DNA of 37,470 bases from a virus: positions 1-37,470 of the IMG/VR virus record IMGVR_UViG_3300033571_008007. The stretch is one strand, 5' to 3'. Shown here in pieces: positions 41-35,539 of this stretch. Under the pieces are notes generated by a model, which was not told where the DNA came from, ran no database searches, and worked only from the letters and a program-made list of their open reading frames with translations. Each line of letters starts with the position of its first letter. The stretch's first letter is position 1. Both the position numbers and the translations under genes were made by a program.

Positions 41-262
41 ATGAAAAAAATAATATTAGGAATAATAATAATATTAGGTATAGGTTGTATTGTTTGGTTT
101 GCTTCTGGCTGGGAATGCACCAGTTACAGAACCGAAACTCAAATTGAAATGCCTATGGGTATAGTGGTCGGTGGTTCAAAATACGGAGGCGGTATTTCCG
201 TTCCAATAGGTAATGCTAGGCAGGTGGAAAAACAGGTGTGTAATGAGTGGATTAAAAACTAA
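41..262 (+). CDS. Small membrane-anchored protein, unknown function
   Basis: A 73-aa protein with a very hydrophobic N-terminus (residues 4-21, mostly Ile/Leu/Gly) that is either a single membrane anchor or an uncleaved signal. The exported part has two cysteines (C26, C67) and a Gly-rich stretch at about 43-51. Cys16, at the end of the hydrophobic segment, is not in a good lipobox. The purine-rich GAAGAAGAG just before the ATG could act as a weak ribosome site. It is probably transcribed with the Dam-type gene across the contig ends and is followed by a methyltransferase. No family was recognised. Confidence 0.55.
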   Translation: MKKIILGIIIILGIGCIVWFASGWECTSYRTETQIEMPMGIVVGGSKYGGGISVPIGNARQVEKQVCNEWIKN

Positions 263-275
263 TAACCCCAATAAA

Positions 276-1250
276 ATGTCACAAGAATTAAAAAAAGAGT
301 GGGAATACAATAAAGTTTATTTAGGAGGTTGCCTAGAAGTGATGAAAGAGATCCCTGATAAGAGTATTGATATGATTTTATGCGACCCACCTTACGGGAA
401 TATTAAAAAAGCTCCAACTGGGTGGAATATTGAAAAACTACAATGGGATAATATAATAAATCCACAGGAATACTTTAATTTGGCTAATAAAATTTTAAGA
501 AAAAATGGAATAATGATTTTATTTTCACAAGAACCATATACAACAAACTTAATAAATTCACAAACAAAAGATATACAATTTTGCTATAGAGCAATATGGG
601 AAAAAGATAATTTTGCAAATGCTTTAGGTGTAAATAAAAATATGGTTGGATTTTATGAAGATATATTGGTGTTTAAAAAACATTTTGAGAGTGAAAATAA
701 TGACGATAACCCTTGCAAGGAATATGCGGTTAGAGTATTTAACTTTATAAATAAACCAATGAAAGATTTAATTTCCAAATACGGGAATACTAATTTAACT
801 CATTTTTACAGTTCGGGAAAACAATTTAGACTTTGCACAGAAGAAACTTACAATAAATTGATTCAAGACTTTAGTATAAATAATATGCAAGGGTTTAAAA
901 CATTTTTGGAATTAAAAGAAATGAATAGGCAATATAAAAACTCATTTCTTTCCACTTTTAATTTGTGGGAAGGTAAAAAATATAAAAGTAATATATTAAA
1001 ATATTCAAAAGATTATGAAGGACTCCACCCAACTCAAAAACCAGTATTACTATTTGAGGATTTAATAAAAACATTTTCAAACGAAGGCGACCTAGTATTA
1101 GATAACTGTGCAGGCTCTGGTACAACAGGAGTAGCTTGTAAAAACACAAACCGAAACTTCATCCTCATAGAAAAAGAACAGGAATACATAGACATTATTA
1201 ACAAAAGACTCTCCTCCCCCAGTCGCACGGAGGATTTAACAGAGAAATAA
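276..1250 (+). CDS. Beta-class DNA methyltransferase (N6-adenine/N4-cytosine type)
   Basis: A 324-aa AdoMet-dependent DNA amino-methyltransferase. Catalytic motif IV DPPY lies at residues 37-40, ahead of AdoMet-binding motif I (DNCAGSGTT, about 276-284). That order is the beta class (PF01555 type), with the target-recognition region between them. A HPTQKP motif just before motif I is typical. The reading frame is open from 213, but the ATG at 276 is preferred: it begins the recognisable protein and follows the A-rich AATAAAATG context used throughout this phage. The N-terminal residues ELKKEW recur in the next gene. No restriction endonuclease is adjacent, so masking of phage DNA from host restriction is the likely role. 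Confidence 0.85.
   Translation: MSQELKKEWEYNKVYLGGCLEVMKEIPDKSIDMILCDPPYGNIKKAPTGWNIEKLQWDNIINPQEYFNLANKILRKNGIMILFSQEPYTTNLINSQTKDIQFCYRAIWEKDNFANALGVNKNMVGFYEDILVFKKHFESENNDDNPCKEYAVRVFNFINKPMKDLISKYGNTNLTHFYSSGKQFRLCTEETYNKLIQDFSINNMQGFKTFLELKEMNRQYKNSFLSTFNLWEGKKYKSNILKYSKDYEGLHPTQKPVLLFEDLIKTFSNEGDLVLDNCAGSGTTGVACKNTNRNFILIEKEQEYIDIINKRLSSPSRTEDLTEK
1212..1234 (+). other. Hairpin at methyltransferase 3' end
   Basis: TCCTCC (1212-1217) pairs with GGAGGA (1229-1234) around an 11-nt loop starting CCCAGTC. It overlaps the end of the methyltransferase coding sequence. The only strong SD-like sequence near the start at 1253 is thus inside the 3' arm, so the structure could limit downstream translation. 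Sequence-level inference only. Confidence 0.4.
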
Positions 1251-34778: not shown

Positions 34779-34880
34779 ATGAACATCTACACAGGAATAA
34801 TCGTAGGTTTTTTATTAGGAAGTTTAATTGTAACAATATTTTATGATAATAACACTACTATTCTTAATAAACTTAGTTAG
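34779..34880 (+). CDS. 33-aa single-TM peptide
   Basis: A peptide starting MNIYTGIIVGFLLG, with one membrane span and a polar C-terminus. It begins five bases after the previous stop and overlaps the CAP-domain gene start. It could be a membrane partner or a leader. Small size limits confidence. Confidence 0.4.
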   Translation: MNIYTGIIVGFLLGSLIVTIFYDNNTTILNKLS

Positions 34881-35178
34881 AGACGTTCCGCTTCAGGAGT
34901 CTGCTGTCCTTAATCAGAGAGCAGAAGTTAGAGCAGAGCAGTTATGTCACAACAAACAATGGAGTCATATAGGTTGGATAGATTCGTTTAAAGGTCTTGA
35001 TTATGACTATGCAGGTGAAAACCTATCAAAGGACTTTGCTAACGATTTAGACGCCTTTATAGCCCTTATGGGGTCACCTAGACACAAAGCTAACATCTTA
35101 AACAAGAACTATAGTGAGATAGGTATAGGATATTCAAAAGAGTGTAATTTAAAGGTTGAATTATTTAGAGGTCTTTAA
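34843..35178 (+). CDS. CAP/SCP-domain secreted protein
   Basis: A 111-aa protein. The hydrophobic N-terminus (MIITLLFLIN) is a probable signal or anchor. The rest is a short CAP (CRISP/PR-1/SCP) domain: H42 in KQWSH, E59 in YAGENLS and H81 in MGSPRHKANILN, the usual cavity residues. It is shorter than typical CAP domains (about 130-150). A host-surface or exclusion role is conceivable, but no phage function is established from sequence. Confidence 0.65.
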   Translation: MIITLLFLINLVRDVPLQESAVLNQRAEVRAEQLCHNKQWSHIGWIDSFKGLDYDYAGENLSKDFANDLDAFIALMGSPRHKANILNKNYSEIGIGYSKECNLKVELFRGL

Positions 35179-35184
35179 CAACAA

Positions 35185-35388
35185 GATTAAGGATAGATGT
35201 CGTGGGTGGTCATCAGAAGCCCGTTGATATAGTATTGACCCGATATGCAAGACCACATCTAGCCCCGCTACCGAAAGGTATAAACGCGACTGATGAGAGT
35301 TTAAAACTTGAAACAGAAATGTATCGCGGAGTGTCCCAAGCGGGGGAATAACTGGACACCAGTCGGGTCACGGCATCTGTCCTTAATC
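35185..35388 (+). ncRNA. 204-nt pseudoknotted RNA domain containing a hammerhead ribozyme
   Basis: The ends, 35185-35204 and 35369-35388, pair as a 20-bp helix with two G-U pairs, which supports plus-strand sense. Inside: GTGGTC/GACCAC (35206-35211 with 35251-35256), with TGACCCGA (35236-35243) pairing out of that loop to 35363-35370 (the last two bases compete with the closing helix). CCCCGCT (35263-35269) pairs with AGCGGGG (35339-35345), itself in the loop of GTGTCC/GGACAC (35331-35336 with 35354-35359). A TACC-GAAA-GGTA hairpin and the hammerhead lie in the middle. No ORF of note. The region 35179-35581 otherwise holds only the tRNA-like element. Confidence 0.75.
35285..35328 (+). ncRNA. 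Hammerhead ribozyme, type I topology
   Basis: Core CTGATGA (35290-35296) and GAA (35310-35312) with A15.1/U16.1 at 35313/35322 and cleavage base A35323 (GTA triplet). Stem I is CGCGA/TCGCG (35285-35289 with 35324-35328), stem II GAGTT-TAA-AACTT, stem III ACA-GAAA-TGT. All invariant bases are present; the 10.1-11.1 pair is G-U instead of the preferred G-C. The chain enters and leaves via stem I. Predicted cut between 35323 and 35324. Confidence 0.85.
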
Positions 35389-35412: not shown

Positions 35413-35539
35413 GGAAGATTGGCAGAGTGGCTTATTGCAAGTTAACTGAAAAGAATCCCATACAAAAAGAGGGAACTGTAGCTGGACTGAGTTTGAAAGT
35501 AACTGGCTACCTTAGGTTCGAATCCTAAATCCTTCCCCA
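35413..35539 (+). tRNA. tRNA-Ser-like element with 48-nt anticodon-loop insertion
   Basis: Standard tRNA geometry is visible: U8, G9, D-stem GCAG/TTGC with A14, GG (18-19) and A21; T-arm TTAGG-TTCGAAT-CCTAA; CCA encoded at 35537-35539. The anticodon stem AGTTA/TAACT (35440-35444, 35500-35504) encloses ACTGAAA (anticodon UGA, Ser) plus about 48 extra nt. Oddities: C at position 33, an A-C mismatch at 4-69 in the acceptor, C73, and a GTAGC/GCTAC pairing (35478-35482, 35506-35510) that would make a pseudoknot. An alternative acceptor GGGGAAG/CTTCCCC and an outer GTGAGA/TCTCAC helix also form. Confidence 0.45.

Follow-up and report, generated by a model that had tools for sequence, protein, structure and literature searches.

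A hammerhead ribozyme within a pseudoknotted RNA family of phages

Hammerhead ribozymes are known as stand-alone cutters, which cleave the chain 3' of position H17 and leave a 2',3'-cyclic phosphate and a 5'-OH. For most of the hammerheads of bacteria and phages, no role is known. Examples from intergenic regions of phages include those of PaP3 and Bcep176 (PMC3088659, Figure S6), and clustered phage hammerheads have been suggested to process transcripts (PMC3088659). Other small self-cleaving ribozymes of phages, the theta ribozymes, cleave at tRNA 3' ends, and some of them are located beside tRNAs (PMC10879173). GOLLD and ROOL are conserved structured RNAs of phages and prophages that have no known function and are often found near tRNA islands (PMC12286853), whereas the type SGC and CSG permuted hammerheads (HRIMA-1, PMC10085705) combine hammerhead chemistry with pseudoknots. 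Here we describe a hammerhead of type I core and its surrounding RNA in a stretch of 37,470 nucleotides of viral DNA (positions 1 to 37,470 of IMG/VR record IMGVR_UViG_3300033571_008007), hereafter the window, and compare them with related loci in other phages.

The hammerhead and its host RNA in the window

The original prediction placed a complete hammerhead at 35285-35328 and described it as nested in a larger pseudoknotted RNA. Every invariant base, the three stems and the GAAA loop of stem III were indeed found there, and the helices of the larger RNA (A, C, D, E and P0) could be located around them, in agreement with the comparative evidence. The larger RNA is a double pseudoknot of about 180 nt, at approximately 35195-35378. 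The coordinates were read from the sequence, and the features are as follows.

35195-35204, + strand: terminal stem P0, 5' strand (AGAUGUCGUG), pairs with 35369-35378
35200-35206, + strand: conserved x1CGUGGG at the 5' start, x1 being U35200
35207-35211, + strand: helix A, 5' strand (UGGUC), pairs with 35251-35255
35236-35242, + strand: helix C, 5' strand (UGACCCG), inside the helix A loop, pairs with 35364-35370 (pseudoknot)
35251-35255, + strand: helix A, 3' strand (GACCA)
35256-35262, + strand: conserved CAUCUnG motif
35263-35269, + strand: helix D, 5' strand (CCCCGCU), pairs with 35339-35345
35270-35279, + strand: small hairpin ACC-GAAA-GGU, read from the sequence, within the linker between helix D and the hammerhead
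35285-35328, + strand: hammerhead ribozyme, type I core
35285-35289 and 35324-35328, + strand: hammerhead stem I (CGCGA/UCGCG)
35290-35296, + strand: hammerhead C3 to A9 (CUGAUGA)
35297-35301 and 35305-35309, + strand: hammerhead stem II, the whole stem-loop being 35297-35309
35310-35312, + strand: hammerhead G12 to A14 (GAA)
35313-35322, + strand: hammerhead stem III (ACA-GAAA-UGU)
35313 and 35322, + strand: hammerhead pair A15.1-U16.1
35323, + strand: hammerhead H17 (A35323), with the predicted cut at A35323|U35324
35324-35331, + strand: x2CGCGGAG, start of the predicted 3' cleavage product, x2 being U35324
35331-35336, + strand: helix E, 5' strand (GUGUCC), pairs with 35354-35359 and crosses helix D (H-type pseudoknot)
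35339-35345, + strand: helix D, 3' strand (AGCGGGG)
35346-35355, + strand: invariant loop GAAUAACUGG
35354-35359, + strand: helix E, 3' strand (GGACAC)
35364-35370, + strand: helix C, 3' strand (CGGGUCA)
35369-35378, + strand: terminal stem P0, 3' strand (CACGGCAUCU)

The window carries each base of the core (C3 U4 G5 A6 N7 G8 A9, G12 A13 A14, the pair A15.1-U16.1, and an H17 that is not G), and the core is surrounded by three helices with the adjacent pairs U-A at 1.1-2.1, G.U at 10.1-11.1 and A-U at 15.1-16.1. Stem II is closed by the G.U pair, and stem III has only 3 bp. In the arrangement of the window and of most other members, which we call the normal order, the RNA runs P0 - x1CGUGGGU - A - (C in the A loop) - A' - CAUCUnG - D - linker - hammerhead, and is continued 3' by x2CGYGGAG - E - D' - GAAUAACUGG - E' - C' - P0'. 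The hammerhead occupies the first loop of an H-type pseudoknot made by helices D and E, and the helix C strand that lies in the A loop has its partner beyond E'. The length of the linker from D to the hammerhead ranges from 3 to 24 nt across the family, and in the window helices C and P0 compete for positions 35369-35370.

None of the Rfam 15 hammerhead models (Hammerhead_1, _3, _II, HH9 and HH10), with which the original prediction was to be checked, scored as high as its gathering threshold in the window or in any of 20 relatives; the best score was 26.4 bits for Hammerhead_HH9, against a cut-off of 52, in the relative L063. Since Rfam makes no call on the window hammerhead, the decision was left to sequence comparison.

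The RNA family in phage genomes

A blastn search against cultured phages gave the first relatives, Dickeya phage Setonix and Pectobacterium phages Pappous and Taid, which have a different yet complete hammerhead at the same place (stem I CGCGC/GCGCG, stem III AUAC-AAAU-GUGU, triplet GUC). In Pappous and Taid (L002 and L003, positions 2040-2156), the RNA is spanned by an annotated 'hypothetical protein', which is probably a false gene call. The pattern derived from the window and these phages, CTGATGA..GAAA..GAATAACTGG, matched at least 119 stretches in IMG/VR; among the matches listed, many were chance matches inside genes and about half shared one repeated architecture. Later pattern scans and blastn searches added Enterobacter phage SDFMU_EhYP, Arthrobacter phages Constance and Karkharias, and Mycobacterium phage Gaia, and model R1 (59 training members) recognises EhYP, Constance and Gaia outside its training set with E values from 7e-19 to 1e-14. 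Altogether, the analysed family includes 120 distinct members in 101 clusters at approximately 85% identity, a lower bound given the strict search patterns. Most members come from IMG/VR contigs, and the others from cultured phages of Pectobacterium/Dickeya, Enterobacter, Arthrobacter and Mycobacterium. Judged by its sequence matches, the larger RNA is widespread and occurs in phages of both Proteobacteria and Actinobacteria. Only three chromosomal matches came from a single scan of about 85,000 bacterial genomes; two were due to chance and the sole real one (L186, Pseudomonas nitroreducens) has the same sequence as phage contig L065; a bacterial chromosomal RNA was rejected on this basis.

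Pairing was assessed by comparison with shuffled sequences, and strong covariation was seen in hammerhead stems I-III as well as in helices A, C, D and E. For hammerhead stems I, II and III together with helix E, 96.6% of cells were paired in 59 sequences, with 214 double changes versus 63.5 in shuffles, and the pairing fell to about 30% when the partner was shifted by one column; stem I also paired above shuffles in the test of helices A and D. The pairing of helix D was 99% versus 71% shuffled (anchors only) and that of helix A was 99% versus 59% (anchors only, with the best of the regex placements chosen). Further percentages for A, D and E, obtained from a pairing-filtered set, are not independent. 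The covariation counts themselves derive from sequences gathered by sequence patterns and, for E, D and A, partly with pairing filters. Helix C had a score of at least 14 in all 101 clusters versus 15% of shuffles, and a long terminal stem P0 extending upstream of x1 was found in 41 of the 97 normal-form members versus 2% in shuffles.

The core of the hammerhead is conserved, too. Two positions absent from the search patterns were constrained in the 84 hammerhead members: U16.1 was present in every one, and H17 was C in 58, A in 24, U in two and never G. The C3-G8 combination occurred in 83 members and was replaced by U3-A8 in phage Gaia, a compensated core change whose natural occurrence and activity have been reported (PMC3088659). 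Position N7 varied freely (U in 60, C in 19, A in five), as the published consensus permits (PMC3088659). Stem I is short (4-5 bp), and loop II has the recurring sequences GUAACG and CUGAAAUG. The 10.1-11.1 pair was non-standard in about a third of relatives (21 of 59), which, together with the G.U pair and the 3-bp stem III of the window, suggests that cleavage may be slow. Loss of core bases in related phages, which the original prediction had named as a sign against itself, was mostly the opposite of what we saw: a pattern scan blind to the hammerhead gave approximately 66 family hits, of which at least 54 had the full core, three were degenerate and about eight were without the domain. We take these comparisons as confirmation, at the level of sequence, that the hammerhead at 35285-35328 is real and more than a chance match, since the RNA recurs, with compensatory changes, in unrelated phages.

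The fold also exists without a hammerhead, in about 30 members. In most of them only 2-5 nt separate helix D from x2CGYGGAG, while some contain different short inserts; the remaining RNA is unchanged. Decayed hammerheads were seen in a few further members, namely L135, L143 and L138, the last with an additional A following A6. The pseudoknot retained in the hammerhead-less members is therefore the conserved unit and the hammerhead an inserted optional module, which sits exactly at the bond of its predicted cut; these members show that the cut is not required for the fold. The Pectobacterium phages and EhYP are among 23 members that show a second arrangement, which runs hammerhead - x2CGYGGAG - E - D' - E' - C' - hairpin (P0 capped) - x1CGUGGG - A - C - A' - D. 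By its order of parts this is a circular permutation, in which a loop closes P0 and the two ends of the chain come to lie between D and the hammerhead. All 23 permuted members have a hammerhead, although this contrast is only suggestive because the scan for hammerhead-less members could find normal-order ones only.

The RNA was present in one copy per contig in 50 of 50 contigs and was mostly intergenic, with a mean ORF overlap of 0.35 versus 0.74 at random places. A tRNA was located within 300 bp in 34 of the 120 members, always on the same strand (versus 12% at random places, on either strand), and further away in the other 86. In one hammerhead-less member, L137, the RNA occupies a gap in a tRNA array. 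Neighbour genes are diverse and include those for terminase, scaffolding, capsid and head-tail adaptor proteins, Q antiterminator, integrase, homing endonuclease and methyltransferase. The assignment of the hammerhead to a phage early region thus holds for the window, where a primase/helicase and methyltransferases are nearby, and fails for other members that adjoin capsid, terminase and scaffolding genes. This diversity led us to reject cis-regulation of a fixed gene. An RNA with its own terminator acting as an independent sRNA was also rejected, as a terminator-like hairpin lies just downstream in only seven of 120 members, a count that leaves an independent transcript not established. By its genomic setting, this is an RNA of phages that has no fixed partner gene and resembles a trans-acting RNA more than it does a leader.

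Several further elements were observed around the RNA. A tRNA-like gene at 35413-35539 (+ strand), 34 nt downstream of the RNA in the window, has the acceptor GGGGAAG/CUUCCCC, a D arm and a T arm. It was missed by default ARAGORN and by Rfam, and the intron-allowing mode of ARAGORN reported it as a tRNA-Phe(GAA) whose anticodon loop contains a 48-nt insertion. Directly upstream of the RNA, a short ORF at 34843-35175 (+ strand) matches phrog_16914 (labelled sporulation protein) and looks like a CAP-type domain. Two copies of the 12-nt word TGTCCTTAATCA, one near 34907 and the other at about 35379, flank the phrog_16914 ORF together with the RNA. In L195, a phrog_850 protein labelled as an RNA-binding protein is encoded at 99-1184 (+ strand), approximately 1 kb upstream of a hammerhead-less RNA.

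Interpretations of the predicted cut

Comparison of the family members establishes, as far as sequence can, the fold, the conserved hammerhead, its optional nature, the two permutations and the single copy. In the account that we consider fairly likely, the whole is a structured non-coding RNA of phages with a double-pseudoknot core, in which the hammerhead is a built-in self-cutting domain for maturation and the mature RNA most likely acts in trans. The core consists of helices A, C, D and E, often closed by P0, with the hammerhead inserted in the D-E loop. The hammerhead would cut co-transcriptionally in the phage, leaving the 2',3'-cyclic phosphate on H17 and the 5'-OH on x2CGYGGA. In the normal order, the two halves would stay joined after the cut by D/D', C/C' and P0 and give a nicked RNA, as the original prediction had proposed from the helices bridging the cut. 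That proposal does not extend to the permuted order, where the same cut would instead free the 5' leader, so that the mature RNA would start at x2. The most likely subsequent action in trans is suggested by the lack of any conserved neighbour gene.

This maturation account leaves one regularity unaccounted for. The base before CGUGGG (x1) is identical to the first base after the cut (x2) in 118 of 120 members, as compared to a mean of 51 and a maximum of 70 in shuffles. Among the members with a hammerhead, 54 of 57 have an x1 that could also pair with the stem I strand. The rule also extends to all 36 members classed as without a standard hammerhead (e.g. L129, L137, L198 and L202), with C, G, U and A all in use. 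A partner position that would explain it in the hammerhead-less members was sought, and only the nucleotide just before x2, which tends to be complementary to x, clearly co-varies. We read the two xCGU copies as competitors for a shared partner, the ACGx' strand of stem I and, where present, the 3' strand of P0; among the family members compared, no single partner accounts for all cases. A tentative and rather doubtful extension of this reading is that the family is a new class of phage non-coding RNA, in which a plug-in hammerhead cuts at a fixed place and the xCGU words at the 5' start and at the cut exchange their pairing partners (x1 = x2). On this reading the RNA would be rebuilt after cutting (nicked, permuted or re-ligated) and not destroyed, a natural RNA that reaches its active form through self-cutting and refolding.

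It is unlikely that the hammerhead is a plain processing element that cuts precursors of phage tRNAs or mRNAs, with the pseudoknot merely stabilising it, although processing of this kind has been proposed for other prophage hammerheads and for theta ribozymes adjoining phage tRNAs. Such a role would suit the subset in which the RNA lies directly beside tRNA genes on the same strand, as well as the tRNA-like gene downstream in the window, and it would agree with the functions suggested for clustered phage hammerheads and reported for theta ribozymes. However, the predicted cut in the normal order lies inside the RNA (54-55 nt from its 3' end in the window) and not at a tRNA end, and the halves would remain joined thereafter. 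The pseudoknot also exists without the hammerhead, even inside the tRNA array of L137, the majority of members are more than 300 bp from a tRNA, and each genome has one copy.

We consider it improbable that the cut starts a strand exchange, in which the 5' x1CGU replaces x2CGU in stem I (both can pair with ACGx') and leads to a switch of fold or to ligation by the hammerhead to a new 5' end, for example into a circular RNA. The identity of x1 and x2 and the complementarity of the stem I strand to x1 both speak for such an exchange, but the identity persists in the members without a standard hammerhead. Moreover, x1 is within or beside the upstream-extending terminal stem in the 41 normal-form members that have it, and hence does not form a free 5' end there. 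RtcB is an enzyme able to join such RNA ends; it was found in only four of 50 contigs, and circularisation by a phage RtcB ligase was rejected for this reason.

Still poorer prospects attach to the view that the cut has no role and that a functional pseudoknot RNA tolerates the hammerhead in one of its loops as a relic or passenger. The persistence of the pseudoknot in hammerhead-less members and the degenerate copies in L135, L138 and L143 would be expected of a passenger, but not the intact core in most hits of the hammerhead-blind scan, the compensatory changes in the stems or the one in the core; the uniform presence of the hammerhead in permuted members, where the predicted cut would trim a leader, points the same way, given a hammerhead-less scan that saw the normal order only. 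A hammerhead-like sequence that arose by chance in some unrelated structured RNA, to which the lack of an Rfam hammerhead match at cut-off might point, is already contradicted by covariation and core conservation across 101 clusters and is scarcely credible.

As the RNA is single-copy and widespread, occurs in two permutations and has a removable, covarying hammerhead, the role of the hammerhead becomes testable, and genetics could set a cutting form of this RNA against a non-cutting one.

Comparison with described ribozymes and phage RNAs

The larger RNA was unmatched by any Rfam 15 family in the window, in 20 hammerhead-bearing and in four hammerhead-less relatives, where the scans yielded nothing beyond tRNAs, hits below threshold and a single unrelated sRNA located elsewhere; we therefore rejected a known RNA family. 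No published description of it was found among open PMC papers, and its novelty is provisional, as an unindexed description may exist. The hammerhead is of a known kind in a new setting, and the host RNA family looks undescribed.

HDV-like ribozymes have a nested double pseudoknot with the cleavage site at the 5' end. The RNA described here has another order of helices (A C A' D E D' E' C') and gave no Rfam HDV-like match, so a theta or HDV-like ribozyme was rejected. The hammerhead itself, of type I by its core bases, agrees with the type I hammerheads (Rfam clan CL00010, with a weak similarity to Hammerhead_HH9, RF02275) in its core bases, three stems, A15.1-U16.1 pair, H17 other than G and open stem I. 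In contrast to them, it is embedded in a conserved pseudoknotted RNA, scores below every Rfam gathering threshold, and has a stem I of 4-5 bp whose sequence is tied to another part of the RNA. Hammerhead-like cores were found in PaP3 (L127, 44030-44111, - strand) and Bcep176 (L128, 17446-17508, + strand), and are probably those of the 2011 hammerhead paper. Both are without the larger RNA, and the scores of model R1 (11.5 and 12.5 bits) are at chance level, which led us to reject them as the same element.

In the type SGC and CSG hammerheads the core itself is permuted, whereas here the permutation affects the host RNA and leaves the core inside it in standard type I order. Theta ribozymes differ in their HDV-like fold and in cutting at the tRNA 3' end, in contrast to a hammerhead with a predicted cut inside the RNA. 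GOLLD and ROOL are much larger and have no Rfam similarity to the RNA described here, their models being unmatched by the window or the scanned relatives. In spirit, GOLLD and ROOL and the tRNA-adjacent theta ribozymes are the closest to the host RNA. With it, a compact (about 90-180 nt) and seemingly unnamed pseudoknotted RNA joins GOLLD and ROOL among the phage RNAs that have no known function.
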